A DNA stretch of 64,000 nucleotides from a virus (IMGVR_UViG_3300011115_000949:35849-99848); one strand, 5' to 3'. Shown: positions 30,635 to 58,448, numbered from the stretch's first letter. A program made the numbers and translations. The notes: a model not told the origin generated them from the sequence alone.

Positions 30635-31213
30635 TTATTTTTTACGAAATTTTTTTAATGCTTCGTTTACTATTGATTCAATGTTAAGTGATTCTGCTTG
30701 TGGTTGTTTTTGTTGTGCTGCTAACCATCTATCTATTTTTCCTAGTATAATCATGTTAGTCTTATCAAATCCTCCTATTTTTTCTAATGTTTTTTTAACA
30801 TTAAATAATGCAGGATATGTGTGATCAGACATATATGATCTTACAAATGATCCAGATCCTCTATTAAAAAATTCAGTATATAATTGCATAGCAATTTCCT
30901 TTTTAGTAATTTCTTCTGATACTCCTTTTTCTTTAGCTAAAGTTAAAATATTATTAATTCTTTTTTCTAATTCACTATTAAAAGAAGAAGAATTATTTTG
31001 TTTCCAATTAAATTGAGTAATAAATTTTCTTAAATCACGAAAAGGATTATCTAAAACTTCTAAATCTTTAACTTTTTGAGCTATGGCTTCTCTTGAATCC
31101 AATCCCTTAGTAGCTTCACCTTCAAGTGATTGGGACCAGTTAGTTATTTCATTCAATACCCCTGCTAAAAATTGCATTCTTTTGAATTCTTCAGATATGA
31201 TTTGTTTTTTCAT
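30635..31213 (-). CDS. Tagged prohead-region protein, unknown function
   Basis: A 192-residue protein. The start MKKQIISEEFKRMQFLAG, then VLNEI, is nearly the same as the starts of the 99- and 217-residue proteins at 43030 and 43375. VLNE/I resembles a prohead protease site. The rest is helical (ELEKRINNILTLAKEKGVSEE) and ends in a basic helix (NEALKKFRKK). It lies between the protease and scaffold genes, so it is probably a core or internal head protein. A promoter-like motif is 16 nt upstream and a terminator follows. Confidence 0.68.
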   Translation of the reverse strand: MKKQIISEEFKRMQFLAGVLNEITNWSQSLEGEATKGLDSREAIAQKVKDLEVLDNPFRDLRKFITQFNWKQNNSSSFNSELEKRINNILTLAKEKGVSEEITKKEIAMQLYTEFFNRGSGSFVRSYMSDHTYPALFNVKKTLEKIGGFDKTNMIILGKIDRWLAAQQKQPQAESLNIESIVNEALKKFRKK

Positions 31214-31229
31214 TTTATTAAATATTTTG

Positions 31230-31239
31230 TTATAAATAT
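31230..31239 (-). promoter_or_regulatory. Promoter-like motif upstream of the 192-residue gene
   Basis: ACATATTTATAACAAAAT on the coding strand; 16 nt before the ATG and right after the protease stop. Confidence 0.58.
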
Positions 31240-31240
31240 G

Positions 31241-31840
31241 TTATATTATTGGGCAAGTTCCATTAGCACACAATATTTCTGTTACTAATGAATTTACTTT
31301 ATAATACGGATTGATTGGAGATGAATTTAATCCTTCACGCAATGGAGACATAAACGAGCCTGGGTTTGAAGGTGTAGAAACGAAATCCCAACACAATAAT
31401 TCAAAATCGTCTTGTACTTCTAATACTTCACCTACTTGTTTTAAACTACCCATACCACGAGATGAAACACCAACTTTAATACCACTACCAATTAGTGATT
31501 TTAAAATGTTGCCTGACGGGGTAGGTAGTATTTCAATTTTGCCCATAATATTATCTCCATCCCACCAAATGCTATTGATGTTATGTGATACGTTTTTTAA
31601 GTTAACTACTTGAGAATCAGGGTGATCTAATTCACCACAAGCACGTCTTTCTTTAACTAAAGTCATGTACTTGTCGATTTCACGTTTCCATAAATCTTTA
31701 GCATAATAGCGACCGTTACCGTTTTTAACTTCACAGGTAGCTAAAACACCTTCAACTAATGGGTTACCATTCATCTTACCTTCGGTAAGTGAGGCAGGTG
31801 ATACGTTAAAGGGACGAGTTTCTACAAGTAGCGATTTCAT
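31241..31840 (-). CDS. Prohead core protease (gp21-like)
   Basis: A 199-residue serine protease of the herpesvirus/T4 prohead type. GELDHPDS (His near residue 72) and KVGVSSRGMGSL (Ser near residue 125) give the catalytic His and Ser. WDFVSTPSNPGS is the third conserved block. It cleaves scaffold, capsid and internal proteins during head maturation. Its own N-terminus MKSLLVE/T could be a self-cleavage site. It sits 1 nt after the 450-residue gene in the core operon. Confidence 0.9.
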   Translation of the reverse strand: MKSLLVETRPFNVSPASLTEGKMNGNPLVEGVLATCEVKNGNGRYYAKDLWKREIDKYMTLVKERRACGELDHPDSQVVNLKNVSHNINSIWWDGDNIMGKIEILPTPSGNILKSLIGSGIKVGVSSRGMGSLKQVGEVLEVQDDFELLCWDFVSTPSNPGSFMSPLREGLNSSPINPYYKVNSLVTEILCANGTCPII

Positions 31841-31841
31841 G

Positions 31842-33194
31842 TTATTTTAATTCTTCTTTAATAAGTTTAGCAATTAAAGAACGTACTTTTGATTCTCTTA
31901 ATCCAGTTTCTGTCATTCCTTGAAATGGTATATCTTTATCTGCTTCTAAAGGAAAAGCATAATCCATAATAGTATTGATTTGAGATGAATTTAAATCTGT
32001 GTTCTCAAGATACTTGAGTGCTGCATCTTTACTCATTTTATTTGATTCAATAGCACTTAGATGTTGATCTAAAACATCAGTATTTTCTTTTAATGAACTA
32101 TATGGTGGTAAATCTTTTTCTGTCCAACTTAATCCCAATCCTATTTTAAGTGCTTGTTGTCTCAAAGCTTCTGCTTCTTCTTTTTTTCCGTTATTATATA
32201 ATTTTTTGCCCTCATCATAAAGTTTAATTGCTTTTTTAGCTGTATCTTTATCATGTTTGGAATCTCCATCTGAAGGGTCAGTATCAAAATATGGATTTTC
32301 GCCAGTTACTATTTCTTTTAATTTAATTCTTTTTTCAGCACCCGGTGTTTTCATTTTTTTAACACCAGCAGAGTTTTGTGGTGTTACAGGCATTTCCTTT
32401 ACTTTTTTAGGCATTGAAGTTTTAGCTTCACTGTTACTTAATGTATCTTTAACGTTTGCTTTTACTTTTTCAACGTCAACGTCTAAATCACCATATCCAC
32501 TTGATTTGTGTTTACCTTTTGGTTCTACTGGTTGTTTTAATGATGGTGCTTCGTCTGTAAATCCAACACCTTCAACACCAAACATTCCATCTTTAGTGTA
32601 ATGTAAAGCATCTTTTGCTAAGTTTTTAACAACGATGTCTTTTAATTCATCTACAGTTTTGTCATGGTTTTTAGGATTTTTTAATTCAAGATAAAAACCT
32701 TTCATGATTTCGTTAAAATTAACGTTGTCAGCATTTTTCATGTCTGCGTTATTGTAAGCATTTTTACGATAATCTTCAACTTCTTTAGATACGTTTTTTT
32801 CTGTGGCTTTAACTGATTCGGATAAACCTCTCAAAGGTGGTTCCATTTTCATCGCTATGTCCGCTTCTTCTACTCCAAATTTTTCAGCTACTGCTTTAGT
32901 ACCCATGTTAAGATTTTTTCTATAAAAATCAACAGCTTGTTGAAGTTTTTTCTTATAATCTTCTGTTTCTTCAGCTAATACTTTTTTCCAATCTACAATG
33001 TTGAAACCTTTACTAACAACACCACCAATAGTATTTTCACTGATGATTTGTTTTGATTTTAATACATTTACAGTAGTATCAAAATCTAAAAGGTTAGTAA
33101 TGTGTTGTGGAAACAAGTGACGAGCTTGTTTTAAAAATTGTGCTTTATTTCCCTTACCACCAACGATTGAGTTGTAATGTTCTTGTAGTGTCAT
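31842..33194 (-). CDS. Head core/internal protein, unknown function
   Basis: A 450-residue, Lys/Glu-rich, mostly helical protein. The N-terminal MTLQEHYNSIVGGKGNKAQF, then ARHLFPQHITNLLDF, is a type found beside portal and protease genes of related phages. The C-terminus ESKVRSLIAKLIKEELK is a helical tag like those found at the N-termini of small proteins further upstream. Position between portal and protease matches T4 gp67/gp68, which are core proteins, though it is far longer. Assignment is by position and composition. Confidence 0.62.
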   Translation of the reverse strand: MTLQEHYNSIVGGKGNKAQFLKQARHLFPQHITNLLDFDTTVNVLKSKQIISENTIGGVVSKGFNIVDWKKVLAEETEDYKKKLQQAVDFYRKNLNMGTKAVAEKFGVEEADIAMKMEPPLRGLSESVKATEKNVSKEVEDYRKNAYNNADMKNADNVNFNEIMKGFYLELKNPKNHDKTVDELKDIVVKNLAKDALHYTKDGMFGVEGVGFTDEAPSLKQPVEPKGKHKSSGYGDLDVDVEKVKANVKDTLSNSEAKTSMPKKVKEMPVTPQNSAGVKKMKTPGAEKRIKLKEIVTGENPYFDTDPSDGDSKHDKDTAKKAIKLYDEGKKLYNNGKKEEAEALRQQALKIGLGLSWTEKDLPPYSSLKENTDVLDQHLSAIESNKMSKDAALKYLENTDLNSSQINTIMDYAFPLEADKDIPFQGMTETGLRESKVRSLIAKLIKEELK

Positions 33195-33195
33195 A

Positions 33196-33747
33196 TTATT
33201 TTTTATTAAATAATGTTAATAAATTGTTTGCGTTTTTAATCATGTTGTCTAATTGTTCTTTACCAAATTCAGTGCCTGGGAGTTCTTTAGCTGTATTGAA
33301 ATCAGGTTTTTCTTTATATGCCTTTTCAGTTTTAGCTTTGGCTTGTTTTAGTAAAGGTAACAATGTGTTTAATTTATTTTCAATTTCATCATAATCATCA
33401 ATTCGATCTGTGATAAATGATTTTAAATCACCATCTTGTAAATTTAATGAATTGATAAATGAGTCTGTTGATTCTTTTTCTTCTAATTTTTTCTTCCATA
33501 AATCTTTATGGTCAATAGTTTTAGAAGCTTTATGTAATTTTTCTACTGGAACTGGTTTCCAACCCAATTTATAGTAGTAGATGTTTTGAGCACCTTTAGC
33601 TTTTTTATTTGGATTGAATGCTACTGTTGGAGCATAATTAGCACTGTCACCAGTATTAAAATGTCCAGCATCTACACCAGCGCCGGTAGCACTCATTTCC
33701 TTTAATTTAGCACGGATAATTTCTTTTATTTTATCTTTATTATCCAT
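33196..33747 (-). CDS. Tagged head core protein, unknown function
   Basis: A 183-residue protein. The start MDNKDKIKEIIRAKLKEMSA is the KxIIRxxL-type N-terminal helix shared by many genes between 39 and 54 kb. It then has a Gly/Ala/Asn-rich linker and a helical C-terminal half (YDEIENKLNTLLPLLKQAKA). It overlaps the previous gene by 8 nt. It sits in the portal-to-protease core block, which supports a head-core role for this tag. Confidence 0.62.
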   Translation of the reverse strand: MDNKDKIKEIIRAKLKEMSATGAGVDAGHFNTGDSANYAPTVAFNPNKKAKGAQNIYYYKLGWKPVPVEKLHKASKTIDHKDLWKKKLEEKESTDSFINSLNLQDGDLKSFITDRIDDYDEIENKLNTLLPLLKQAKAKTEKAYKEKPDFNTAKELPGTEFGKEQLDNMIKNANNLLTLFNKK

Positions 33748-34594: not shown

Positions 34595-34609
34595 TTAAGT
34601 ATGCTTTTA

Positions 34610-34619
34610 TTATAAATAT
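34610..34619 (-). promoter_or_regulatory. Promoter-like motif upstream of the head core block
   Basis: Exact ATATTTATAA followed by TAAAAG on the coding strand; 15 nt before the 34594 ATG, between portal and core genes. Confidence 0.58.
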
Positions 34620-34630
34620 ATCAGGATAGA

Positions 34631-36496: not shown

Positions 36497-36504
36497 AGGT
36501 TAAA

Positions 36505-38112
36505 TTATAATAGCCACCCTAAATCTTCGGTATCATTTTCACCAGTTTTCATTACATATGGATTATCCATACCTGATGCAAAATAAGCCCCCTGATATGA
36601 GGATGGTTTTTGTATGTTATTTAAAGTTGCTTTAGTCAATTCTATTCCTTGTTGTCTATATTTTAATGCTGTGTCACGAACATACATAGCAATGCTATAC
36701 GACATTACCATATCATCATTGTACCCAGTTTGTGCTTCCGCTCTACCATTTTTCCAAACAAATACTTTCATTTCTTCTAATAAACGTTTGTCTCTAATGA
36801 GTACACTATGATCTCCAAAATACTCTCTACCTTTATTAATTACTAATGGTCTAGTTCTTAATGACATAGTAAATCCAGGTGTCATTTTGGATGTATCTTC
36901 GTATCTACTAAAATACGAATCAGAATTTGCGATATCACTTTTAGGTGAATAATATAGATTTCTATATCCTCTTTCTTGAATTGAGTCTAATGTAGACCAA
37001 CCAATATTATTGTTTTCAACTATAAGTAATGCTTCATTATATTCAGTAGCTATACCACAAAGTAGATAACCAAATTCTTTAGGTGGTAATTGTCCTTTAT
37101 AAGCTGCTACTTGAGCATTTGTTTCAATATCAAATATATGAAATACAGAAAAATCTTTTCCATCCCCTCTAGCTACGTCAGCTACTACCATATAATTTCT
37201 AGTGTAATCTGGGGATTCCCAAACCCACAAATTTTTATCTACACCTCTTCTTTCTACAGGTTCTGATATTGTAGTAGTTGAATAATATTCTATATGTTCA
37301 GGATAGTATACTACATCACCTGAAGTTGTAAAATCACAGTCACATTCTTGTGCTGCTAATCTTGGGTCGCCTAATAATTCGTCTTGTTTTTTTCTCCAAG
37401 CTTCATCTCGTTCAGGATGAACCATCCAAGGTAATTTAATTGGAAGAAAATCGTTTTCTTGAGCTTCAGCTGAAACCCAGGTTTTGTGGAACCAATTACC
37501 AGTACCAAATGGAGTAGATAATACAATAGCACCACCACCAGTGGCTAATGTTTGTTGAGCAGAGGCCCATATCTCAGCTATGTTTTCAATAAATGCAGCC
37601 TCGTCAACTAACAACAAAGATACTGCTTCAGATCGACCAGCATCGCCTGCTGCTGATACTGCTTTAATTTGAGAGCCGTTTGCTAATTTAAGTGATAGTT
37701 TATTATTTTCAGAAGGTTTTTCTCCTCCTTTAAGCCATGTAGGTAAGTTATCATACATAAATCTTACCTTTGTAACCATGTTTTTAGCAGTTTCTTGTTT
37801 AGTTGCTAAACACAATACGTTTTTATCTTTATGAAATAACATTAACCATAAAGAATACCCAGCACATAATGTTGATATACCTAACTGGCGTGATTTGAGT
37901 ACAATGTTGTATGGATTATCCCTCCATAAACTTAATACTTTACCTTGAAATGGGTACAAGTTAAATATAATTCTACCACGAGTTGGGTGTTGAATGTAAC
38001 AATATTTTTTCATAAAGTGTGCTGGGTCTTTTGCACACTTGATGTATTCTTCTCTGATTATTTGTCTTAAATCTTGACTCATATAGCTAGAAGCAGACTT
38101 AAGATAATGCAA
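36505..38112 (-). CDS. Terminase large subunit (gp17-like)
   Basis: A 535-residue protein. The ATPase part has VLKSRQLGISTL (Walker A-like, near residue 72), SLLLVDEAAFIEN (Walker B) and LSTPFGTGNWFHKTW (coupling motif). The nuclease part has MVVADVARGDGKDFSVFHIF, LLIVENNNIGWSTLD and DDMVMSYSIAM, a set of acidic residues expected for the RNase H-like fold. It packages DNA into proheads. The start overlaps the spanin-like gene by 34 nt. No small terminase is recognised in the window. Confidence 0.94.
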   Translation of the reverse strand: MHYLKSASSYMSQDLRQIIREEYIKCAKDPAHFMKKYCYIQHPTRGRIIFNLYPFQGKVLSLWRDNPYNIVLKSRQLGISTLCAGYSLWLMLFHKDKNVLCLATKQETAKNMVTKVRFMYDNLPTWLKGGEKPSENNKLSLKLANGSQIKAVSAAGDAGRSEAVSLLLVDEAAFIENIAEIWASAQQTLATGGGAIVLSTPFGTGNWFHKTWVSAEAQENDFLPIKLPWMVHPERDEAWRKKQDELLGDPRLAAQECDCDFTTSGDVVYYPEHIEYYSTTTISEPVERRGVDKNLWVWESPDYTRNYMVVADVARGDGKDFSVFHIFDIETNAQVAAYKGQLPPKEFGYLLCGIATEYNEALLIVENNNIGWSTLDSIQERGYRNLYYSPKSDIANSDSYFSRYEDTSKMTPGFTMSLRTRPLVINKGREYFGDHSVLIRDKRLLEEMKVFVWKNGRAEAQTGYNDDMVMSYSIAMYVRDTALKYRQQGIELTKATLNNIQKPSSYQGAYFASGMDNPYVMKTGENDTEDLGWLL

Positions 38113-38486: not shown

Positions 38487-38754
38487 GTTTATTTTTATTT
38501 TGTTTACTTTTTTCTTTTAAAACTTCTAATTCTGCTTTATCTTTTTCTATTTCTTCTTTAAATTTTTCAGCTATAGAATTAAGTTCTAAAATTTGGGCTT
38601 GTTTTGCTTTAATATCTAAAGCAAGTGAATCGTTTTGTTGATTTAACTCTTTTAAACGATCTTTAATATTTAACGTTTGTTTATTTTGGAATACAAGTAA
38701 AACAAATAGAATAACTATTACAATATAAGGAATTATATTTTTAAGCTTACTCAT
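38410..38754 (-). CDS. Spanin-like inner membrane protein
   Basis: A 114-residue protein. One N-terminal membrane segment (IIPYIVIVILFVLLVF, residues 8-23) is followed by a continuous coiled coil (about residues 30-100), the architecture of i-spanins (Rz). The ending KSVVSEFTDAFK fits short C-termini seen in such proteins. Its 3' end is nested with the next gene, and its ATG overlaps the upstream stop (ATGA). Lysis function is inferred from architecture and nesting. I see no separate holin or endolysin nearby. Confidence 0.58.
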   Translation of the reverse strand: MSKLKNIIPYIVIVILFVLLVFQNKQTLNIKDRLKELNQQNDSLALDIKAKQAQILELNSIAEKFKEEIEKDKAELEVLKEKSKQNKNKHDKERDRINNLDAKSVVSEFTDAFK

Positions 38755-39518
38755 ATGTTTTTTAAAGAATCTCTACCAGCAGCGTTAAATAAAAAATTCA
38801 TTAATGTTGGTGAAAATTTCTTATCCTTTGCTAATTTTAAAATAGCATCAATTTTAGCTTTATCATCTTTATTTTTCTTAACAGATGTTAAAAATCCATT
38901 AAATTTTTTAGTTTCCTCATCTGACAAGTTTTTAAAAGCTTGTGCAAGTTTATCTTTTTCTATTTCTTCTTTACTTTTTGGTTCTTCAGGTACCGATTCT
39001 TCTTCTTCTGGTTTTTCATAGTCGTCTTGCACTTCTACATCAGCATCGTCATCTTCTGGTTCTACTGTTGGTTCAGGTTCAGCTGTTGCTGTCTTAGCTG
39101 GTTTAGCTAAAACTTGAGCAAATGCTAATTTTAAAATATATGGGTTTAATGATGAAGTACTCAATGCTGTTTCTAATTCTTTTTGTGTTAAACCACCTTC
39201 AGATCCTTCAATAGCGGCTATTAAACGACCTTCAATAGTTTCAGGACCATATAATTCTTTAGCTAAAGTTATTTTAGTAGTATCACCTAATCTAATTTTA
39301 TTAACTTTACGATCTTCTTCAAGTTCAGATTCTTCTAATTCTACGTCACCACCGGCATTTAAATTTTTAATAGCATTAGTTTTAGCATCTGCTTTTAATG
39401 TATTAAATTTAGGATCTTTTGTTATTTTTTCTACTGCATCTTTACCGGCATATGTAGTTTCTGTTAATTCATTTATAATTTCTTCACGAATAAATTCGTA
39501 TAGTTCTTTACGTTTCAT
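38751..39518 (-). CDS. Tagged acidic/helical protein, likely internal head protein
   Basis: A 255-residue protein. The start MKRKELYEFIREEIINELTE, then TTYAG, is one of the shared N-terminal helices, with LTE/T as a possible protease site. The middle is helical. Residues 140-185 are very acidic with Pro/Glu repeats. The C-terminal 75 residues are basic and helical (KNKDDKAKIDAILKLAKDKK). It begins after a promoter-like motif at 39531-39540, 12 nt upstream. No enzymatic motif is visible. Confidence 0.62.
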   Translation of the reverse strand: MKRKELYEFIREEIINELTETTYAGKDAVEKITKDPKFNTLKADAKTNAIKNLNAGGDVELEESELEEDRKVNKIRLGDTTKITLAKELYGPETIEGRLIAAIEGSEGGLTQKELETALSTSSLNPYILKLAFAQVLAKPAKTATAEPEPTVEPEDDDADVEVQDDYEKPEEEESVPEEPKSKEEIEKDKLAQAFKNLSDEETKKFNGFLTSVKKNKDDKAKIDAILKLAKDKKFSPTLMNFLFNAAGRDSLKNI

Positions 39519-40356: not shown

Positions 40357-40647
40357 TTACTCTCCTCCAGATAATACTCCTATTTTTTTAAGACTTTTAA
40401 CTTCAGGTTGAACCATTTTATATTTTTGTTTAATTGTTATTGCAAGATCTGTTGTAGACATACCATCTTTACCGGCGCGCTGCAGTGCATCTATTAATTT
40501 TTCAATCCAGTAACCTTTATAAAGTTGTTTTACTTTATTTGCTTTTTCAGAATTAATAATTGTAATACTTTTAGCGGTACGACCCTGTTTAGCTTCAGCC
40601 ATTTCTTTGGCTACTAGTTCACGAATTAATTTAGATAATTTATCCAT
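40357..40647 (-). CDS. Tagged protein with winged-helix-like C-terminus
   Basis: A 96-residue protein. The N-terminal helix MDKLSKLIRELVAKEMAE/A is a shared tag with a candidate protease site. Residues 45-95 (LIDALQRAGKDGMSTTDLAITIKQ and LKKIGVLSGGE) look like a winged helix-turn-helix, so DNA binding is possible. A promoter-like motif lies 4 nt before the ATG. Its identity as a core-packaged DNA-binding protein is inference. Confidence 0.58.
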   Translation of the reverse strand: MDKLSKLIRELVAKEMAEAKQGRTAKSITIINSEKANKVKQLYKGYWIEKLIDALQRAGKDGMSTTDLAITIKQKYKMVQPEVKSLKKIGVLSGGE

Positions 40648-41630: not shown

Positions 41631-42119
41631 TTATTTTTGAAAAACTACAACATAAAACCCATCATCATCTTCTTCAGGATCTCCTTCACTTATATTTTCA
41701 TAAAGTATATTATAGTTTTGAAACATTGATTTTAATGTTTTTAAATTCGTATTGTAATCTTGAACTACTAAATATCCCCCAGATTTTAAAGCATCATCCA
41801 CTGTTTTTTTAATTTCTGGTGAGTATTGGAAATTATAAAATGAGTATGACATGTTAATAAGATTTCTAGGAGGTAATTTAATGTATTGATTTAAATCATG
41901 TATCTGATTATTAGGATTTCCATCTTTGGGGGTAGAAAATTTATCTATTACTATAGTTTTATTTCCAAAATCACTATATTTTCCTCCTCCAAAATCGTAT
42001 ATTTCTTCTGAATTTGGTTCTAGTTTTTTAGATAAATTATTAGCAGATATATATTTATCTCCCAAATCTAAATTATCTACTTTAAGGATTTCACTTAATA
42101 AATTTATTAATTTTATCAT
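41631..42119 (-). CDS. Rossmann-like (possible methyltransferase-fold) protein
   Basis: A 162-residue protein. It starts MIKLINLLSEILKVDN, similar to the short tags. IYDFGGGKYSDFGNKTIVID (residues about 40-60) resembles a glycine-rich SAM-binding loop. ALKSGGYLVVQDYN is a later strand-turn. A key acidic residue and the usual catalytic motif are not clear, so the protein may be degenerate. It lies inside the split FAD dehydrogenase. Function is unknown. Confidence 0.55.
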   Translation of the reverse strand: MIKLINLLSEILKVDNLDLGDKYISANNLSKKLEPNSEEIYDFGGGKYSDFGNKTIVIDKFSTPKDGNPNNQIHDLNQYIKLPPRNLINMSYSFYNFQYSPEIKKTVDDALKSGGYLVVQDYNTNLKTLKSMFQNYNILYENISEGDPEEDDDGFYVVVFQK

Positions 42120-43029: not shown

Positions 43030-43329
43030 TTAATATAATCCTTCGCCTGAAGATAATTTTCTCCAAGCTGATTGAATATATTTCATTTCAGACATATCAT
43101 CTATATGATCACTAAAAAAGTTTATAAATTCTGATTTTGTGATTTCATTATGTCCGGAAAAAGTTTCATTAAAATCTAATAGTATATCTTCATCATCAAA
43201 TGAATCAGCATATTCTTGAGCATCACTAACACTAATAGTTTGTTCATCTTCATTTAACTGTGACTCAATGATCAATCCTGCGAGTTTTTGCATACGTTTA
43301 AATTCTTCGTTTAATGTTTGTTTTTTCAT
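43030..43329 (-). CDS. Small tagged acidic protein, unknown function
   Basis: A 99-residue protein. The start MKKQTLNEEFKRMQKLAG, then LIIES and QLNEDEQ, is nearly the same as the proteins at 43375 and 30635. It offers two candidate protease sites. The rest is very acidic (ADSFDDEDILLDFNETFSG) with an EF-hand-like spacing near residue 55, though no canonical loop is present. It lies in tandem with the 217-residue tagged gene. Probably an internal head protein. Confidence 0.62.
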   Translation of the reverse strand: MKKQTLNEEFKRMQKLAGLIIESQLNEDEQTISVSDAQEYADSFDDEDILLDFNETFSGHNEITKSEFINFFSDHIDDMSEMKYIQSAWRKLSSGEGLY

Positions 43330-46385: not shown

Positions 46386-46639
46386 TACTTTTTAAGTTTT
46401 AAAAAACGTTGAGCGATTTTATTTGCTAATTCTTTTTCTTCTTCTTTTAAAGAGGCTGAAGCTTTTGGTGCTGGTTCAACACCAGGTGCTGGTTTATCAA
46501 ATCCTCTACGTTTTGGAGTTGTGCCAGGTTTAGTAGTAGGAGGTGCAGTAGTTTTTTCTTTTTCTTTAGCAGGAGCATTTGCACTTACTGCTTTTTTTAC
46601 TTCTTCTCTAATGATTTCTTTTAATCTTGCTATTTTCAT
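46385..46639 (-). CDS. Small tagged low-complexity protein
   Basis: An 84-residue protein. MKIARLKEIIREEVKKAVSA is a class 2 tag. A Pro/Thr/Lys-rich linker (residues 25-62) joins it to a second helix (EEEKELANKIAQRFLKLKK). The whole protein is two helices joined by a flexible strand. It overlaps the 890-residue gene (ATGA) upstream and the 428-residue gene (TAATG) downstream, showing tight translational coupling. Probably a core protein. Confidence 0.6.
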   Translation of the reverse strand: MKIARLKEIIREEVKKAVSANAPAKEKEKTTAPPTTKPGTTPKRRGFDKPAPGVEPAPKASASLKEEEKELANKIAQRFLKLKK

Positions 46640-49308
46640 GATTTTTTATTTTTTGAAATTAAACGTAATGCGTTTTTGGCTTCATCAAGCATTGTTGGAT
46701 TTTGAGCTAAGAATTCACTAACAACAGCGTGTGCTAAATTTTCAGCTAAACCTCGTTGTGTTAATGTATTTACTAAGTTATCAGGTGAACCAATATTTAA
46801 TACTGTACCATTTGGAAGAACAACAAGATGTCCATTTCCGGGTTGAATATTAATTGAAGCCATATTTCCGTTATTTCCAGCTAAACGAATAATATAAATA
46901 GAATTTCTTCCAGCCTCAAGTACTCTAACTACTCTACCTCTAGCGCCTAATAAATTATTACGACGAGATGCTCCTCTAGATCTAAATGGAGGCACACCAA
47001 CTGGGTTTGCTAATACTCTTCTTAAACTAGGAGACATATTTTGAAGTCCTTGTTGTAAACCATATTCTGCAAATATTTCTTCAAGATTAAGTGCTCCTTC
47101 TTGTGGTTGGGCTGGTGCTGCGGGTTGTGCTGCTCCACCTGCTGGTCTACCTCTTCTTCTTTCACCAGCTGCTGGGGCTGCTGCTTGAGGTGCTGCTGCA
47201 GCTTGAGGTGCAGCTGCTCCAAGTATTTGTCTAGCTTGAATAGACGAAATTACTTTATTTAATAATTTACCACTTCTATCTGAAACTATAAAACTTGATC
47301 TTGGATCTCTAGTGTTAAGTAATATTACAACATCATTTACCAATACAGGTTTAAGTGTACTATCTTGAGCCATAAGTGGATTAGCTTGTACAATAAGTTT
47401 TGCAATATCTTTGTTTTGGATACTCATTAATAAACCTTTAATTTGTCGATCACTAAATGGTTGGTTTGTATCTCTATAATATTTTATAACTGTTGGCCAA
47501 TTCTGAGGGGAAATGGAATTGCTGTAATCATATGTTCTCCATCCATCTCCGGTCCTTCGTCCATAATCTATAATAGCGTCGGGTTTACCATCCCTTAAAT
47601 CAGGGTTTATAACAAATATTGGTTGGTCTTCAGCACTTGGATTTACAAGTATTACTCCATCTCTATCTCTAGCAATACCTTTACGTTTATCGTATGGAGT
47701 GTTATTTAATATTTGAAGGAATGGACCTCTTTCAATTGTGGCGGGAAGTGTTTTTGCACCAAAAACTAAATCTACTGCTGATTTTTGGAATCCTGTGTTT
47801 GACTCTTCTCCTTCTAATGCTTTTTGTACTTCTTCACTATCAAATGGAATAGATGATAATTTACCATTTTCTATTTTATATGATGTAAATGAATTTGAGT
47901 CTAATACAATTTTACCAGCATCTGTATCTTTAACAACTATAGAAGAATTTGGATCTGTTGTTGCTTTTTCTAAAATTTTATTTACAAAATCAACATCTAC
48001 TACTTCGTTATCCATTAATCTTAAAACCGTTGGGATTGGAAGTTTGTCTATTTCAGGATAATCTAAAATAAATCTAGAAGTACGTTTGTTAAGTTTAATA
48101 TCTGGGTAGTCTCTTTCTTCTGTAAAGACTGCTACTTGTACTCCTTCACCAAACTTTAATTTAACTATTGAATTATTATCTTTAGTAACATATAATCTTT
48201 CGTCAGATTTAGTTTCAAATTTATTTAATTTAACTAAAAGTTTTTTAACATCAAATGGAAGATTAGCTCTATTTAATTCTCTTACGTCTATAAGTTCTCT
48301 AAGATTAGCAGTAATAGATTTTCTATCGTTAGGTGTAAATTTGTCTAAATTTGCAAGTAATATCTCAGGATTTATAAGATCCGCATTTGTAGCTATAAAT
48401 GTTGCTAATTGAGGATAGTCTGGGAGGTATTTTCCAACAAATGTTTTTCTAGTTACATCGTTAAATAAGTCACTTCTGTCTTTTCTAATTACTATATATT
48501 GTTTTTTTTCAGTAAATGGAAGATTTTCCCAATCACGAAAATTAATTGCATTTTTACTATATAATTGAGTTGATTTTTCTTTAGATGATAAAGGAATGTA
48601 TTTTAATAAATTTTTAACATTAGGTATATTTTGTAACCAAGTAATATCTCTATTAAGTGATTCCCAACTCATTTTTTTAGATTCGTTTGGATCATTTTTT
48701 CTGTTAGTCCAAACATAACTTCCATCACTTCTAACTTGAATAGCAACAAAACTTAACTTATCGCTATCTGGTAGATTAGTATTTTTTATTAAATAAAATG
48801 AAGGAAAATTTCTGTCTTGTGAATATCTATAATTTCCAAATGATGTTCTTGTAATACACCACGGCACATCATTTCTATGTCTTTGACATAATTCTTCGTT
48901 TCCACCACTATATATTGTGTACCCGTTTTCACTATAAATTACATCTGGTCCTGTTTCTTCTTCCTCTTCTTCTCCAGGAACTTCTGCTCCTAGTGATGAG
49001 CTAGTAATTTTAAGTAATTTAGCTAATGTATATTTACGTAAATCTTTTTCGGTAATTTTAGGTGAATTTTTTAATTGGTCAAAACGTTTAATAGCAGCTT
49101 CAAGTGCTTGGTCTGATATAGTTATATTTAAATCGTCTGCTTCTTCTTTAAATTGAGCCATCAAACGTTTAATTTCAGCATCTGAGTATTCGTTTAAAGG
49201 AAACAAATTGTTTACAACATGTTCAATAAATTTGTAGGTATTTTCTTTACTACCTTCTTTAATGGTGTTTTTAAGCACCCATTCTGTTACGTTAAATGTT
49301 GAGCTCAT
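46636..49308 (-). CDS. Large conserved protein of unknown function, tag-island member
   Basis: An 890-residue protein. The start MSSTFNVTEWVLKNTIKEGS, with LFPLNEYSD near residue 37, fits the tag style loosely. A segment near residue 130 (SGGNEELCQRHRNDVPWCIT, then RNFPSFYLIK) matches a motif seen in several phage virion proteins (LC...WCI...FY.I). An Ala/Pro/Gln-rich stretch near residues 735-780 is low complexity and could slip. The C-terminal part looks like a small beta domain (VVRVLEAGRNSIYIIRLAG). No ADP-ribosyltransferase or nuclease motif is recognised. Probably internal to the head. Confidence 0.55.
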   Translation of the reverse strand: MSSTFNVTEWVLKNTIKEGSKENTYKFIEHVVNNLFPLNEYSDAEIKRLMAQFKEEADDLNITISDQALEAAIKRFDQLKNSPKITEKDLRKYTLAKLLKITSSSLGAEVPGEEEEEETGPDVIYSENGYTIYSGGNEELCQRHRNDVPWCITRTSFGNYRYSQDRNFPSFYLIKNTNLPDSDKLSFVAIQVRSDGSYVWTNRKNDPNESKKMSWESLNRDITWLQNIPNVKNLLKYIPLSSKEKSTQLYSKNAINFRDWENLPFTEKKQYIVIRKDRSDLFNDVTRKTFVGKYLPDYPQLATFIATNADLINPEILLANLDKFTPNDRKSITANLRELIDVRELNRANLPFDVKKLLVKLNKFETKSDERLYVTKDNNSIVKLKFGEGVQVAVFTEERDYPDIKLNKRTSRFILDYPEIDKLPIPTVLRLMDNEVVDVDFVNKILEKATTDPNSSIVVKDTDAGKIVLDSNSFTSYKIENGKLSSIPFDSEEVQKALEGEESNTGFQKSAVDLVFGAKTLPATIERGPFLQILNNTPYDKRKGIARDRDGVILVNPSAEDQPIFVINPDLRDGKPDAIIDYGRRTGDGWRTYDYSNSISPQNWPTVIKYYRDTNQPFSDRQIKGLLMSIQNKDIAKLIVQANPLMAQDSTLKPVLVNDVVILLNTRDPRSSFIVSDRSGKLLNKVISSIQARQILGAAAPQAAAAPQAAAPAAGERRRGRPAGGAAQPAAPAQPQEGALNLEEIFAEYGLQQGLQNMSPSLRRVLANPVGVPPFRSRGASRRNNLLGARGRVVRVLEAGRNSIYIIRLAGNNGNMASINIQPGNGHLVVLPNGTVLNIGSPDNLVNTLTQRGLAENLAHAVVSEFLAQNPTMLDEAKNALRLISKNKKS

Positions 49309-49311
49309 TTT

Positions 49312-49572
49312 TTATTTATTAGGTAAAAACCAATTTGAACAATATTTGTTTAAATTTTCTTTAGTTACAGGTTCTTTAGTTGTTGGATCAATTAATAGAT
49401 GGGTTTTCATATATTCTTGATAGTTTTTATTTCCACAAGCATATGCTCCTTCATCTTTATTATAATTAAGAAATTTACAAACATGGCATCCAAATCCTAC
49501 AGATGAATACATGTATTGAGGATATTGGTTTGTTACTTCTTCGTTTAATAATATGTCTGTTAGTTTAATCAT
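49312..49572 (-). CDS. Small tagged Cys-rich protein, possible metal binder
   Basis: An 86-residue protein. I choose the ATG at 49572, which overlaps the previous stop (ATGA), over the GTG five codons upstream. The start MIKLTDILLNEEV is a short tag ending in LNE. The body has four Cys: CHVCKF, then ACGNK, then YCSNWFLP. The spacing suits a zinc or iron-sulphur site. The family is common in T4-like phages but its role is unknown. Confidence 0.6.
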   Translation of the reverse strand: MIKLTDILLNEEVTNQYPQYMYSSVGFGCHVCKFLNYNKDEGAYACGNKNYQEYMKTHLLIDPTTKEPVTKENLNKYCSNWFLPNK

Positions 49573-49952
49573 TTTGTTTTCCCCCACGATTTACCTTTAC
49601 CTGGATCTTTACATGCTGCTGGTGTAGGACGACATGAAGGATATTTTGCACGTTTTTCACCTTTTTGGCGGCCACAAGGTTTACATTTACCATCGCGACA
49701 CGTGTTGCAATCTACCCAACCACCTGTTTTACCAGGAGCACCTTTACGTTTGAACCAAGTACGAAGTGTTTCTTTTTCGTTAATTTCTTCTTCTTTAATA
49801 TCTTTCCAAATTTTACCCTGACGGCATCTTACAATAGCTCCTGATTTGTAAGCTGATGGTTTATCGTATTTGCGGTCTGCAATACGTTTGCAACGGTCAG
49901 CTTTCTTTTTTTCTTCAAGAAGTATTTGTTTAAGTATGTGGGTAAGGTTCAT
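49569..49952 (-). CDS. Cys-rich basic phage protein with tag-like start
   Basis: A 127-residue, strongly basic protein. It starts MNLTHILKQILLEEKKKADR. KYDKPSAYKSGAIVRCRQGK and LRTWFKRKGAPGKTGGWVDC, then CRDGKCKPCGRQKGEK, are recurrent blocks in phage proteins of unknown function. The Cys pattern suggests a zinc site. The gene is coupled at both ends to its neighbours (1 and 4 nt overlaps). Confidence 0.6.
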   Translation of the reverse strand: MNLTHILKQILLEEKKKADRCKRIADRKYDKPSAYKSGAIVRCRQGKIWKDIKEEEINEKETLRTWFKRKGAPGKTGGWVDCNTCRDGKCKPCGRQKGEKRAKYPSCRPTPAACKDPGKGKSWGKTK

Positions 49953-50326
49953 TAAATTCCTATATTGATGAGTTGTGGATCTTTTACAACAAATTTAACT
50001 ACACCTTTAATATTATTAATAGCACCAATAATCGCTTTAATATTTTCTATATCAAATTTACCATTAGCTTTAACATATGGATTTGGATCTACTTTAATAG
50101 TAACTCTATTATATTGTTGATCTGGTTTTGGTAAATTGGGGATATATTCTTCAGTATCCATTGTTGTAATACCAGTTACAGCTCTGATATCTGAGAATGT
50201 TTGAGATTGTGTTTTATCTTTATCTGTGGTAACTAGTAAACCTTCAAGTTTATAAAGTTTTTCAGCATACCCCTCGTTAAGGATATTACGTATTTCTCTT
50301 CTAATTATGTTTCTAAGTTTATCCAT
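49952..50326 (-). CDS. Tagged protein with ferredoxin-like pattern
   Basis: A 124-residue protein. I choose the ATG at 50326 (MDKLRNIIRREIRNILNE/G), which overlaps the previous stop (TAATG), over one four codons upstream. The tag and LNE/G site are the clearest in the set. The body alternates strands and helices (YNRVTIKVDPNPYVKANGKF, then NIKAIIGAINNIKGVVKFVV), like a ferredoxin-type fold. Function is unknown. Confidence 0.65.
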   Translation of the reverse strand: MDKLRNIIRREIRNILNEGYAEKLYKLEGLLVTTDKDKTQSQTFSDIRAVTGITTMDTEEYIPNLPKPDQQYNRVTIKVDPNPYVKANGKFDIENIKAIIGAINNIKGVVKFVVKDPQLINIGI

Positions 50327-51370: not shown

Positions 51371-51380
51371 TTATAAATAT
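51371..51380 (-). promoter_or_regulatory. Promoter-like motif upstream of the 222-residue gene
   Basis: Exact ATATTTATAA followed by CCATG on the coding strand; 2 nt before the ATG at 51368. Confidence 0.52.
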
Positions 51381-51383
51381 TAT

Positions 51384-52487
51384 TTAATCTTTCTTTTTAT
51401 CTGATGAAGATTTTGTTTCTTTTTTAGCAATATTTAGTTGGTTTTGAAGTATTCTGTATGGTTCAAATTCTTTTTGTAATTCAGAAGTGTTGTACAAATT
51501 TAATTTACCACCGCCATATATTATTAAACCATTAATTTTACTTAAATAATCTAACCATATTTGATTAAGATCTTCATATACTAATTTTGGATTTACAACC
51601 CACGGATGTTTTAATAATTTTGAGATTAAAGCTTTTTGTTCTTTTACTTCTAAACCTAATTTAACAGACTCAGGTGTACCATCATCATTGGTAATAACAC
51701 TGTCTATTTCATATTTTTTATTACCAATTTTAATATATGGTTTTTCTTCTATATCTCCCTCAGATTTAGTATATGATTTTAGTTCTGGCAAGATAGAATA
51801 TATCGTTTCTATAACTGTTCCACTTATGTTACCGGCTTTATACTCATTATTGTAATAATCAGTTAAAAACTGAATTTGATCTTGTATTGTGTTTATATTT
51901 TTTTTAGAACTTTTTTTTTCTTCTATATTTGTTGAAGTATTATCTTTATTTATTATTGAAAGAAGATACATTAAGTACGTGTAATGTTTTTGAAAAGATG
52001 AATTAGTTATATAACCACTAGATGCTGTTCTAAATTCACCACTAGATAATTCTTTAACATCATATACTTCATCTTTTATTTTAATGTCTTTTTCTTTAGT
52101 ACCTCCAGATGTGCTATCTTTTACTCCTAATAAAATAGAAATTTCACCTCGTCCTAAACCAGTTTTTATAATATTTACATAATCTTTATATATTCCTAGT
52201 ATTTTATCTAAGTCAGTAATTGAATATTTTCTAAAATTTTCTAAAAAAGATTTTTGATTATTTGGATTAGCATTATAAATTTTTTCAATTTCATCTACAA
52301 TATCTTTTTTTAATTTAACAACATTTAGTAAAATTTCTTTACATTGAGTAAATGTTTGTGGATTTTTTTGATCTATATCTTCCAATAAACTATTTAAAAG
52401 TATAACATCCTGTTCATTGTTCATGTCAATATATCCTTTAGGGAACTTATAAGAAATCTGTCGTATAAATTTTTCTACTATATCCAT
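51384..52487 (-). CDS. Possible PD-(D/E)xK-like nuclease
   Basis: A 367-residue protein. GLGRGEISILLGVKDSTSGG (near residue 110), then EKDIKIKDEVYDVKELSSGE, matches a G-x-GE...D...VK pattern seen in restriction-endonuclease-fold proteins. The acidic and Lys residues line up as E, D and D-x-K, though one change from the classical E-x-K is present. Flanking regions are helical and Lys-rich. No HNH or GIY-YIG motif is present. It lies in the tag island and could be a packaged nuclease, which is inference. Confidence 0.5.
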   Translation of the reverse strand: MDIVEKFIRQISYKFPKGYIDMNNEQDVILLNSLLEDIDQKNPQTFTQCKEILLNVVKLKKDIVDEIEKIYNANPNNQKSFLENFRKYSITDLDKILGIYKDYVNIIKTGLGRGEISILLGVKDSTSGGTKEKDIKIKDEVYDVKELSSGEFRTASSGYITNSSFQKHYTYLMYLLSIINKDNTSTNIEEKKSSKKNINTIQDQIQFLTDYYNNEYKAGNISGTVIETIYSILPELKSYTKSEGDIEEKPYIKIGNKKYEIDSVITNDDGTPESVKLGLEVKEQKALISKLLKHPWVVNPKLVYEDLNQIWLDYLSKINGLIIYGGGKLNLYNTSELQKEFEPYRILQNQLNIAKKETKSSSDKKKD

Positions 52488-53011
52488 TACGCTGGTGTTT
52501 CTTCAGTTGGAGTTTCTTCGGTTGGTGCTTCAGGAGCTGGAGCTTCAGGAGCTGGAGCTTCAGGTGATTCAGCTGGAGGTGTTTCTCCGCCTTCTGCCTT
52601 TTCAGGTTGAGCTTTACCACCATATGATAATATTCTAGCAATTGCTTCTATACAATTTTGTTCTTCACTTAAATTAAGTAAATAATATTTTTTACCTTCT
52701 ACTTTACCAATCCATGTTCTATCAGTATAAATCATGTAAAATGGTTGGTCGTTAGCTAATATAATTCTAAATGTAGTAGGACGTGGGGCTACCCACTCAA
52801 TATCTTTTAAAAATAATTCATATTGATCCGTTAACATTTTTATAATAACATCCTTAAGTGTAGGAAATTTAACTAAAACAGGAAAACGTTCACTATCTAA
52901 TGATATAGGTTCTGGGTTGTCTAAATCAACTTCAGCCCCAGATTGTTTAGTTGTTGAGTATACTTGCTTAACTAAAGCTTTAATTCTATCTTTTAACTCG
53001 TCTTTAGTCAT
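52487..53011 (-). CDS. Protein with Pro/Glu repeat tail, unknown function
   Basis: A 174-residue protein. The start MTKDELKDRIKALVKQVYST is a helical tag variant. Residues 35-130 form a compact domain (TFRIILANDQPFYMIYTDRT, then WIGKVEGKKYYLLNLS). The last 40 residues are APEAP/TEETP repeats that could expand or shrink. It is coupled to both neighbours by 1-4 nt overlaps. Function is unknown. Confidence 0.6.
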   Translation of the reverse strand: MTKDELKDRIKALVKQVYSTTKQSGAEVDLDNPEPISLDSERFPVLVKFPTLKDVIIKMLTDQYELFLKDIEWVAPRPTTFRIILANDQPFYMIYTDRTWIGKVEGKKYYLLNLSEEQNCIEAIARILSYGGKAQPEKAEGGETPPAESPEAPAPEAPAPEAPTEETPTEETPA

Positions 53012-53480: not shown

Positions 53481-53500
53481 ATATTTTATTTTGTTTGTTT

Positions 53501-53902
53501 TTAAGCGGTCATACTTTGTTTTTCAACACCTAATACTTGTGTCCTAACAAGCATAGTTAAAGTATTTCCGATTTGTTTAATTAATTTTTCGTCACCCAAT
53601 TGTTGAGCATTGGCTAATGCTTTTTGTAACAAGTCTTGGATGGTTTTTATTTCAGGTTTAATATCTAATTCACCTGTTGAAGCGGGTGCAACATTAGCTG
53701 TAGGTTCAGCTGTAGTATCCATTGTTGTTTCAGATGGTGGTGCTTCAGTTGATGCTGTTTCGTCACTACCCATGTTTAAGTCTACTGAATCGTCTTGTGG
53801 TGCTACGTCATTAGGTTCTTTTTTCTTTTTAGCTTCATTTAAATTTTTATATTCGTCTAATATAATTTCTTTTAAACTTTGGATGAACTGATGTTTTTTC
53901 AT
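53501..53902 (-). CDS. Small tagged protein with disordered linker
   Basis: A 133-residue protein. MKKHQFIQSLKEIILDEYKN, then LNE/AK, is a clear tag with a candidate site. Residues 30-80 are Thr/Ser/Glu/Pro-rich and probably disordered. The last 50 residues are helical (IQDLLQKALANAQQLGDEKL). A promoter-like motif lies 13 nt upstream. It ends about 20 nt before the Hc1-like gene. The layout (tag, linker, helix) matches the 84-residue protein at 46385. Confidence 0.62.
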   Translation of the reverse strand: MKKHQFIQSLKEIILDEYKNLNEAKKKKEPNDVAPQDDSVDLNMGSDETASTEAPPSETTMDTTAEPTANVAPASTGELDIKPEIKTIQDLLQKALANAQQLGDEKLIKQIGNTLTMLVRTQVLGVEKQSMTA

Positions 53903-53915
53903 TATAGTGATTTTA

Positions 53916-53925
53916 TTATAAATAT
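53916..53925 (-). promoter_or_regulatory. Promoter-like motif upstream of the 133-residue gene
   Basis: ACATATTTATAATAAAAT on the coding strand; 13 nt before the ATG. Confidence 0.58.
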
Positions 53926-53943
53926 GTGATATTTAATTAAATT

Positions 53944-55118: not shown

Positions 55119-55121
55119 AAC

Positions 55122-55673: not shown

Positions 55674-57528
55674 TTTTAATTGAATCTTCCCAATTTCTAA
55701 AACACATATTTCCATGCTCATATGCTTCACGTTCCAGTTGGTCTAATTCTCCACCTTCATTTGTATTAGTGGTGTGAATGTTATTTAGTCGACCTTCGTT
55801 ATCTTGAATACGGTGAATCATCTCATGAGCGTATGAACGTAATATATCTTTTGGATGACGGCCAAGGGTAAATAAAGTGATTGAACAACTTGAGGGATCG
55901 TAATATGCTGTTTTACCTAAAATGTTTGAAGCGTTTTCAGAATCGTTGTTTATTATTTTTAATTTAGGTAATGGTTTGATATTCATACCACTATCTAACA
56001 TATATTTAGTTAACGATGCTAATGCGCTTTTAAAATCTGTGGGTTGTTCATGTTGGCAACCACAGCTTTCTGAGATGTTAGTTATTCCTAATGCATTTTT
56101 ATATCCTTCAGGTGTTATTCCATCTGGTACATATGGGGTTAGATCTGCTCCAGCTTTTAGTGCTATTCTTACATTTGTTGCACTTAGATTTCCAGCTGCA
56201 CTATCGTAATTTTTTATTGTTACATTTGGTGGAACCATTCCATATCTGCCAGAATCCCCTTCTTTTCCAAATACTGCAATGTATTGTTGATCTGGATTCT
56301 TTTCAAATATTTTATAAGCTGCCTTTACAGGACTGTTAAGTGGGACTGGAAGTTTTGGGTCTGATGATAGCATCACCTTAACATTCTCTGGAAGGTTTGC
56401 TAGTTTAAAAATAGCTAAACTCTGCTCAGCAGATACAGGCATTTGAGTCTCGAGTTTTTCTCTAGTTTTTTTATCGGTTTTAGTTGAGTCTGGTTCAGTG
56501 TTAGGTGACACTAAGACAAGTACTTCACTAGCATCTTCAGCTGCTGCTTTAATTCGAGCTATATGATCTTTATGAGGTGGTTTAAATTTACCAGGGAATA
56601 CAGCTATTGGTTTTTTAGGTTGGGTCTCATCTTCTAGAATAAAAGATTTTACTAATTCCATTACTAATGGATTATATTTTTCCTCTAAAGAAGCTACTGT
56701 GTCTAAAGCTTGTTGTTTTTTAGTACCTTTTTCAGTTCCTACCTCAGCATCTCCTACACGTATATTTTTCTTAAACATTCCTTTAAGACGGTCTATTGAT
56801 CTTCTGTTTTTAAATTCTTTAACTTTAGATATAATATCATTAAATTTATCTTTTTCAATGTTGATATTCAGATATTTAATTATAGTTTTAATATCATCAA
56901 AATTATTTGATTTCCATATTTCCTTACCTTCATTTTCTCCTACAGGAACAATCCTTAATGATAGGCCAGATGGATTTAAATTAAAATCATATTCTTCTCC
57001 TTCACCTGGTTTTTTAGCATTATCTATACCTAGTTCTTTAAATAAATTTTCTATTTGTTTTTCATCTAATTCACTAAAAATAGTTTTAACTAAACCTATA
57101 GCCATTACTTGTTCTTGAGCAGGTAAATCTAACATTTTATATGTAAATTTCCCTTCTTCTTTAGATACAGTTACAATATTATCTATTTGAACATATTCTC
57201 CTTCTTTACCAGCTATTGGATATAAAGTAGAAACTATATTCCCATGTATAAAATATTTTTTGTTACCCTTTTGTGGTATTTCAGGGATTTCACTAACTTG
57301 TGATAAAAATTTAGCTAATTCTTGTTTTAGTTCTTTTTTATCACCTTCGGGATAGGATACAACAACATCAATATCTCCAAAAATATTTTTTTCAGGTCTA
57401 GAGCGTACACCTGTGATTTTGTAAGATTTATCTAAACCTAATGGTTTTAGGATATTTTCTCTATAATCACGGATTGTCGCTTTTAAATTTTCTTTATTTA
57501 TACGAGATCCACCAGCTGCTCCACTCAT
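55666..57528 (-). CDS. Three-domain protein: nucleotidyltransferase, adenylyltransferase-like, HExxH peptidase
   Basis: A 620-residue protein. Residues 1-290 contain FGDIDVVVSYPEG, a DxD nucleotidyltransferase active-site strand. Residues 315-475 contain AVFPGKFKPPHKDHIARIKA (HxxH-type adenylyl/cytidylyltransferase start) and LSATNVRIAL (the ISxTxxR-like end). The last 140 residues contain YAHEMIHRIQDNEG, an HExxH zinc peptidase motif, with a downstream GGELDQLEREAYEHGN that could give the third ligand. A single chain with these three activities is unusual. It starts with MSGAAGGSRI and not the standard tag. Substrates are unknown. Functional state of each domain is not certain. Confidence 0.68.
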   Translation of the reverse strand: MSGAAGGSRINKENLKATIRDYRENILKPLGLDKSYKITGVRSRPEKNIFGDIDVVVSYPEGDKKELKQELAKFLSQVSEIPEIPQKGNKKYFIHGNIVSTLYPIAGKEGEYVQIDNIVTVSKEEGKFTYKMLDLPAQEQVMAIGLVKTIFSELDEKQIENLFKELGIDNAKKPGEGEEYDFNLNPSGLSLRIVPVGENEGKEIWKSNNFDDIKTIIKYLNINIEKDKFNDIISKVKEFKNRRSIDRLKGMFKKNIRVGDAEVGTEKGTKKQQALDTVASLEEKYNPLVMELVKSFILEDETQPKKPIAVFPGKFKPPHKDHIARIKAAAEDASEVLVLVSPNTEPDSTKTDKKTREKLETQMPVSAEQSLAIFKLANLPENVKVMLSSDPKLPVPLNSPVKAAYKIFEKNPDQQYIAVFGKEGDSGRYGMVPPNVTIKNYDSAAGNLSATNVRIALKAGADLTPYVPDGITPEGYKNALGITNISESCGCQHEQPTDFKSALASLTKYMLDSGMNIKPLPKLKIINNDSENASNILGKTAYYDPSSCSITLFTLGRHPKDILRSYAHEMIHRIQDNEGRLNNIHTTNTNEGGELDQLEREAYEHGNMCFRNWEDSIKNV

Positions 57529-57533
57529 AATAA

Positions 57534-58448
57534 TTAAATATTTTCAGGTGTATATGCACCAGCACGTTTTAAAGCTTCTTTAAATAAATCTAATATTTTT
57601 GATTGATCTTCAATTTTAAGATTATTTTTAATATAATTCATTAACTTATCATAATTATTAATTATTTCTAAAGTTAATGGTTGTGGTGGTTGATATTCTT
57701 GATTAAATGTTTCTAAAGCACCTTGAGGTTTATCAGCTATAATTTCACCTGTTTCTTTACGAATAAATCCTTTACCACTTTTAAAAGTATATCCTAAAAC
57801 TGCAAACATAGCTAACATTAATTGTCCTCTATGTAATCCTTTAATTTGGGGATTATCTTCAGGTAATTCAGAATTATATCTAAATTTTAACCAATCCATG
57901 TCTCCTGAGTCTAAATCAAGTTGTGTTCTTGAATCTAATTTTTCTCCAGTTAAAGCATATTGTGGGTATGAAAAATGGATTGTACCTCCATTTATAGCTT
58001 TATTACTAGCAAATAAATCTCCACCAGTATTGTTAATTTTATTTACTACAGTATCCAATAATGCTCTAATTTGAACTTGTTCATCTGTGGCAGTACGAGA
58101 AGATTTTTTAAATTTCTCATATAAGTTATTATACTCGTTAGTATCTACTCCCCATCCTTCTATATCTATTTTTCCATTTTTAAAAAAATATTCTGAGGAG
58201 TATGCTAAATCAACATCTCCGGATTGTGGTTTTCTGCCTGTTGAGCCTAACCAATTGCTTGTATCATTTAAAGAATTAAATGTAGATTTTTTATTTGGAA
58301 ATATTTTTCCTAAATCTTCAACAAATTTTTTAATTGTTGATGCTATATTATCTTTATCTATATTTTGTGTATCGTATTCTGTATTTTTGAATACATTACC
58401 TCCTTCATTAAGATATATTTCTTTTAAAAGTCCAACTAAAGATATCAT
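57534..58448 (-). CDS. Tagged nucleotidyltransferase-like protein
   Basis: A 304-residue protein. MISLVGLLKEIYLNE/GG is a clear tag with an LNE/G site. WLGSTGRKPQSGDVDLAYSS (near residue 70) is a nucleotidyltransferase GS...DxD active-site pattern, and DLDSGDMDWLKF later gives further acidic residues. The substrate is unknown. Together with the three-domain protein next to it, it makes a pair of nucleotidyltransferase genes. Its promoter-like motif is 11 nt upstream and marks the start of the tag island. Confidence 0.7.
   Translation of the reverse strand: MISLVGLLKEIYLNEGGNVFKNTEYDTQNIDKDNIASTIKKFVEDLGKIFPNKKSTFNSLNDTSNWLGSTGRKPQSGDVDLAYSSEYFFKNGKIDIEGWGVDTNEYNNLYEKFKKSSRTATDEQVQIRALLDTVVNKINNTGGDLFASNKAINGGTIHFSYPQYALTGEKLDSRTQLDLDSGDMDWLKFRYNSELPEDNPQIKGLHRGQLMLAMFAVLGYTFKSGKGFIRKETGEIIADKPQGALETFNQEYQPPQPLTLEIINNYDKLMNYIKNNLKIEDQSKILDLFKEALKRAGAYTPENI

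Follow-up and report, generated by a model that had tools for sequence, protein, structure and literature searches.

The 64,000-nucleotide stretch IMGVR_UViG_3300011115_000949:35849-99848, referred to in its full length as the window, raises the question of why so many of its proteins, with unrelated bodies, begin with one of a few short helices. At least 16 window genes start with one of four short peptide tags (classes 1 to 4), as do 2 further genes elsewhere in the source of the window, a 99,848-base IMG/VR virus record with almost all genes on one strand (clear class 2 genes at record positions 12580 and 27162). A preliminary description had counted about 15 members in three classes and had proposed that the tags direct proteins into the phage head and are removed by a protease. 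The tags are real, the family was undercounted and a fourth class was missed. The tags are very probably capsid-targeting propeptides, and the principal new finding is a sequence match that identifies class 1 with the motif at the C-terminus of the scaffold protein encoded by the phage itself.

Class 1 and the scaffold C-terminus

The record contains a T4-type head module consisting of terminase, portal, gp21-type protease, a scaffold-position gene and a gp23-type capsid protein. Among cultured phages, the closest is Flavobacterium phage vB_FspM_immuto (immuto; capsid protein identity 58%). The window genes that carry the class 1 motif are listed below; a slash marks a predicted cut.

29428..30435, minus strand: head scaffold (gp22 position), assigned by its place just upstream of the capsid gene and by the motif in relatives; C-terminus PIIENDAFARMRELAGLTKK, the class 1 motif
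30635..31213, minus strand: class 1 N-terminal tag MKKQIISEEFKRMQFLAGVLNE/, unknown body, between scaffold and protease
43030..43329, minus strand: class 1 tag MKKQTLNEEFKRMQKLAGLIIE/SQLNE/, 29 bits with the scaffold profile
43375..44028, minus strand: class 1 tag MKKQILSEEFKRMQKLAGIQINE/, 30.7 bits with the scaffold profile
44596..45066, minus strand: class 2 tag MENSTLRQIIRESIQSYIREIDE/, coiled coil, terminal class 1 unit PLNE/SFLYMQKLAGVITE/AQY

The scaffold C-terminal consensus P-I-x-E-(2-4)-[FV]-x-R-[MWF]-x-x-L-A-G-[IL]-K occurs in nearly all of 112 distinct relatives. These include immuto and Microcystis phage Mel-JY01, and the end of the Rhodothermus phage RM378 protein reads ...ERIKRLAGL. 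A profile trained only on scaffold C-termini detected the N-terminal class 1 tags, including those at 31213, 43329 and 44028 named previously, as well as the end of the 45066 protein, with 18 matches of at least 15 bits in six genomes versus 0.1 in shuffled sequences. The motif at the end of the scaffold gene itself had gone unmentioned in the earlier list. Since [ILVM]xE precedes the C-terminal helix in 108 of the 112 distinct scaffolds, the class 1 tag and the scaffold end share both helix and putative cut site. This identity of class 1 with the scaffold motif strongly supports a head-targeting role of the tags.

Class 1 is not confined to N-termini. It was found at the C-terminus of about 10 non-scaffold proteins, several of which have a different N-terminal tag. 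The 45066 protein had been described as combining a class 2 start with a class 1 end, and profiles confirmed both motifs; its class 1 unit has [IL]xE on each side, and relatives (G1 19155, G5 104390) extend 100-200 amino acids beyond the unit. L316, a homolog of the 40647 protein, likewise has the class 1 motif at its C-terminus.

Tag families compared with chance

Every gene start listed in the preliminary description is present, on the minus strand. An alignment of N-termini had been suggested there as a check, and it placed the tag families above background: among protein pairs with unrelated bodies from six genomes, 89 pairs of N-terminal 32-residue segments scored at least 40, whereas interior segments gave 14 such pairs, C-termini 35 and shuffled N-termini 8. 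Pattern-free clustering recovered class 1, class 2 and some scattered pairs of class 3, and added a fourth class, FDLKK[FY]LVENK (F-D/N-L-K-K-F/Y-L-V-E-N), of which the protein encoded at 46636 is a divergent member. The patterns were further compared at first and interior methionines of loci not selected for tags, from which terminases and duplicates had been removed. The class 1 pattern followed 12 of 2603 first methionines versus 2 of 9488 interior ones (odds 22); the corresponding numbers were 30 versus 1 for class 2 (odds 111), 20 versus 5 for class 3 (odds 15) and 7 versus 0 for class 4.

For class 2, a profile was built from sequences outside the window and then scored on the window starts. 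The starts at 50326, 39518, 46639 and 45066 exceeded every null value, and those at 53902, 49952, 40647 and 33747 had p values of about 0.0005-0.0016. The class 2 list thereby stands for most of its members, although 51368 is weak and only its orthologs are clear, two further orthologs being tagless (MCSCGC...). The protein at 49952 had rightly been called a looser member and is class 2/3-like. The class 2 helix LRxIIREE does define a real tag family but is not diagnostic alone, because the terminase large subunit carries a class-2-like helix without a cut site; such helices start the terminase large subunits across the clade (LRQIIREEYIKCA). Class 2 calls should require [IL]xE or orthologous support. 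The class 3 starts at 42119, 49572 and 58448 hold as well, the same 10-residue tag occurring on at least 108 non-redundant IMG/VR bodies.

31842..33194, minus strand: conserved head-cluster protein, C-terminus KVRSLIAKLIKEELK, class-2-like
33196..33747, minus strand: class-2-like N-terminal tag MDNKDKIKEIIRAKLKE/MSATGAG on a conserved head-cluster protein (T4 gp67/68 position); p ~0.0016, orthologs in many loci
36505..38082, minus strand: terminase large subunit, beginning MSQDLRQIIREEYIKC, a class-2-like first helix with no [IL]xE behind it; motif false positive
38751..39518, minus strand: class 2 tag MKRKELYEFIREEIINELTE/, 25 bits, above all nulls
40357..40647, minus strand: class-2-like tag MDKLSKLIRELVAKEMAE/, p ~0.0007
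41631..42119, minus strand: class 3 tag MIKLINLLSE/, methyltransferase-like protein (weak match)
46385..46639, minus strand: class 2 tag MKIARLKEIIREEVKKAV, 24 bits, no clear [IL]xE
46636..49308, minus strand: class-4-like start MSSTFNVTEWVLKNTIKE/, 890-amino-acid protein, divergent class 4 member
49312..49572, minus strand: class 3 tag MIKLTDILLNE/
49569..49952, minus strand: class 2/3-like tag MNLTHILKQILLEE/ on a DUF5872 domain (Pfam PF19197, E=1.4e-7); p ~0.0007
49952..50326, minus strand: class 2 tag MDKLRNIIRREIRNILNE/, 26.8 bits
50700..51368, minus strand: weak class 2 start MDRIRHIVREILTKQPDK, p ~0.03
52487..53011, minus strand: class-2-like start MTKDELKDRIKALVKQVY, no [IL]xE, p ~0.002
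53501..53902, minus strand: class-2-like tag MKKHQFIQSLKEIILDEYKNLNE/, p ~0.0005
57534..58448, minus strand: class 3 tag MISLVGLLKEIYLNE/, nucleotidyltransferase-like enzyme

The predicted cut site

Column by column, conservation in all four classes stops at [IL]xE and then drops to background or zero, in agreement with the earlier remark that most tags end in hydrophobic-x-E; the final conserved glutamate has I, L, M or V two residues before it. The [IL]xE is found at residue 22 in class 1 (83%), at residue 20 in class 2 (59%), 20-21 residues past the F of class 4 (59% together) and at residue 10 in class 3. These columns lay outside the search pattern for classes 1, 2 and 4; the class 3 glutamate lay inside it. 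L/I-x-E is the known cleavage site of T4 gp21 (PMC9026906). Cutting after [IL]xE would presumably be carried out by the gp21-type protease encoded in the head module. In the major capsid protein, the position given for Glu60, within VVE/A, is correct.

27737..29395, minus strand: major capsid protein (T4 gp23 type), predicted protease cut VVE60/A; PHROG 138, E=1.7e-69, 58% identity to the immuto capsid protein
31241..31840, minus strand: prohead protease (T4 gp21 type); PHROG 207 head maturation protease, E=1.7e-56

Class 2 was considered as a copy of the helix that precedes VVE/A in the capsid protein; this was rejected, as the profile median of -4.0 versus -6.8 in shuffled sequences lies under the 95% point of the shuffles. 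A second short motif, E-I-K-V-x-x-P, often stands directly behind the cut site (NEIKVFKP), in G5 107639, 116031 and 102847 and in other tagged proteins.

Exchange of tags between bodies

Homologous bodies with different tag classes were found in 85 protein pairs, and 13 of 201 body clusters contain more than one class; 38 bodies with a class 3 tag have matches among class 2 or class 4 bodies, and homologous bodies also occur without any tag. In 39 of the 85 swap pairs the homology starts no more than 15 residues from the predicted cut on both sides. The clearest module is the 58448 protein, which reads MISLVGLLKEIYLNE/GGNVF in the window versus M-GGNVF in the untagged orthologs of the immuto type. 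In its predicted model the per-residue confidence score (pLDDT) is below 50 only at residues 1-15, exactly the tag. Relatives of the 890-amino-acid protein carry class 2 or class 3 N-terminal tags or C-terminal class 1 motifs, and the acidic 53902 body has stacked tags in the relatives L244, L428 and G5 114320, with class 1 or class 4 ahead of class 2.

Most bodies have no known function, and across relatives hundreds of them are unrelated to each other. Zeta-toxin-type kinases account for 7 of 74 class 3 proteins; other matches are NUDIX, an RNase T-type exonuclease, an NT5C nucleotidase, a class 4-tagged sigma-70 factor and, weakly, an ADP-ribosyltransferase. The 58448 body weakly matches a DNA polymerase beta-type nucleotidyltransferase fold (expect value E 4e-3, template-modelling score TM 0.34), and its family has an invariant GSxG...SGDxDL motif. 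When the 58448 and 46636 families were compared by sequence with solved structures, nothing convincing emerged, and the poor predicted structure of the 890-amino-acid protein (predicted TM score, pTM, 0.43) gave no fold match. Judged by the precedent of T4 Alt, such a collection would fit proteins that are injected for host takeover.

Two observations concern other bodies. The largest tag-swapping families (L451, L403, L441 and relatives) have hydrophobic stretches behind a second LxE/G, e.g. NEG/LLTVAGIALALPAIMGL, and are possibly membrane-active ejected proteins. At 55666-57528, nucleotidyltransferase-, cytidylyltransferase- and zincin-like segments lie in one protein, whose relatives range from 363 to 1222 amino acids and differ in domain make-up.

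A proposed model of head loading

In the proposed model, a short N-terminal peptide of any of the four classes would retain a protein inside the growing prohead during head assembly; in class 1 a C-terminal peptide would sometimes serve instead. As class 1 copies the scaffold C-terminus, proteins tagged with it would mimic the scaffold and probably dock at its site, in shell or core. The gp21-type protease would then cut after [IL]xE and free the body into the head. Bodies would be freely exchanged between tags, and many of them would be enzymes likely injected with the DNA. We infer docking, cutting, virion location and injection from sequence properties, namely the tag families, the end of conservation at [IL]xE, the scaffold match, the exchange of tags and the co-occurrence with the head module and its capsid gene; together they support head targeting and removal by the protease strongly.

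We lean slightly towards a broader version, in which an environmental T4-like phage clade uses at least four interchangeable docking peptides for loading dozens of enzymes into the head. Placed at one end or the other of the cargo, between protease sites, class 1 would take the docking site of the scaffold C-terminus, and a single reaction would then remove the scaffold and release the cargo. If this is true, a modular phage protein-delivery system can be read from sequence. How certain proteins are localized in the T4 scaffolding core has been called still mysterious (PMC9958956); the copying of the scaffold C-terminus by class 1 provides a visible partner logic and makes the docking question directly testable. 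For uncultured phages, hundreds of "hypothetical proteins" would become predicted contents of the head and effectors that are probably injected, such as kinases, nucleases, NUDIX hydrolases and a sigma factor; several tags would be candidates for packaging foreign proteins into phage heads.

Several points weigh against the head-loading model. The proteins at 46639 and 53011 have no clean [IL]xE; the swap pairs other than the 39 start later or involve internal domains (31 internal-domain pairs); a class-2-like helix also begins the terminase, a protein that one would not expect in the head interior; the T4 internal-protein tag has no sequence match to these tags; and no virion proteome of immuto or its relatives was found. 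Some bodies may also be core components that are degraded in the prohead rather than delivered.

Alternative explanations

Some tagged proteins may be assembly factors and not cargo. In its general form, this explanation holds that the tagged proteins act in head assembly as cofactors of the T4 gp67/gp68 kind, join the core through their tags and are then largely degraded by the protease, with few or none injected; it is unlikely but has to be taken seriously. Two tagged genes do lie within the head cluster (33196, 30635), and several bodies are acidic, coiled and rich in LxE sites (45066, 53902). Arguing against it are the sigma factor, zeta-toxin-type kinase, NUDIX and nuclease domains among the bodies, the variation of the tagged set between phages, and the predicted cut directly behind the tag, which would leave the body whole.

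Considerably less probable is that the tags address another site made during infection, such as a membrane, the replication site or the tail, and that [IL]xE is a chance feature of the helices. In its favor, the helices of classes 2 and 3 are short, amphipathic and generic, a class 2 start is also found on the terminase, and in immuto a conserved class-2-like protein adjoins baseplate genes. However, such an address would not account for the scaffold C-terminal motif in class 1, the same terminal [IL]xE in four classes or the interchange of classes on the same body.

That the tags are relics of recombination, conserved 5' DNA carried along in gene shuffling with no function as peptides, is highly improbable: same-class tags often lie on neighboring genes and T4 internal-protein loci are likewise highly variable, but synonymous codons in the tags vary nearly as codon usage predicts (identical 0.62 and 0.68 versus expected 0.54 and 0.56), the 40 nucleotides upstream of tagged genes are unrelated, and class 1 is also used at the C-terminus. 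Copied DNA was rejected on the codon variation, which together with the unrelated upstream DNA indicates selection on the peptide.

Comparison with known systems

The closest functional parallel is the capsid-targeting sequence (CTS) of T4 IPI, IPII, IPIII and Alt, where a short N-terminal peptide on unrelated proteins is likewise followed by a gp21-type L/I-x-E cut, in a phage with a T4-type head and protease; the cargo includes the injected enzyme Alt (PMC9026906). In contrast to the single T4 CTS, there are four classes here with about 10-18 members per genome, and class 1 also occurs C-terminally. Because they show no sequence relatedness to the T4 tag, the tags are not placed in the CTS family by descent. 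Class 3 was tried as a relative of the T4 tag MKTYQEFIAE and rejected, since the class 3 profile placed the T4 internal proteins only at ranks 11, 12 and 18 among 63 T4 N-termini. Nor is the T4 tag a copy of any T4 core protein; no match was found, unlike the match of class 1 to the scaffold. Class 1 shares with the T4-type scaffold (gp22) end the (F)xRMxxLAG motif and the preceding I/LxE, but on cargo the motif is mostly shifted to the N-terminus.

The best T4 match of the class 3 profile was the N-terminus of the vertex protein gp24, MAKINELLRE/S (8.5 bits, next 2.1), which has the length of the class 3 tag and a glutamate at residue 10. T4 gp24 is cut after 10 residues, and a database record lists it as cleaved by gp21. 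In T4 this sequence is on one shell protein, whereas class 3 is found on many unrelated proteins. N-terminal head-entry signals exist in other large phages too, as in the P1 DarB packaging signal and the SPN3US propeptides; the P1 Dar proteins have no common N-terminal consensus (PMC9024508), and the SPN3US propeptides are long, 111-130 residues (PMC7411985). What is new with respect to these systems is that class 1 matches the scaffold, that classes and members are so numerous, and that tags are used at both protein ends.

Distribution and further observations

DNA pattern scans of IMG/VR, which give lower bounds, yielded at least 54 distinct class 1 proteins with at least 42 non-redundant bodies, and non-redundant bodies numbering at least 136 for class 2, 108 for class 3 and 69 for class 4. 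A search of 84,980 bacterial and archaeal genomes gave no exact match to the class 1 pattern. Of 50,697 phage records, immuto alone contained tags of class 1 and class 4; its tagged proteins include KNV73_gp083, with a predicted cut after AGIITE, and gp076 and gp077, with FDLKKFLVEN tags. No published mention of the tag sequences was found. Of the 34 class 1/2/4 contigs that reach 50 kilobases (kb), 26 carry this T4-type capsid gene, as do all 13 that reach 115 kb; for class 3, 12 of 17 contigs have it.

The sequence TATTTATA, which is the T4 late promoter core TATAAATA in reverse complement, occurs 11-39 bases ahead of many structural and tagged genes, upstream of about 19 in the window (e.g. 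8890, 18144, 30635, 38751, 44596 and 57534). With 31 coding-strand versus 10 opposite-strand sites in the record, it is probably the late promoter. Related capsid proteins (48% and 38% identity) are encoded by the very large uncultured phages LR756508 (484 kb) and LR756511 (595 kb), the former of which also has a weak class 2 tag match.

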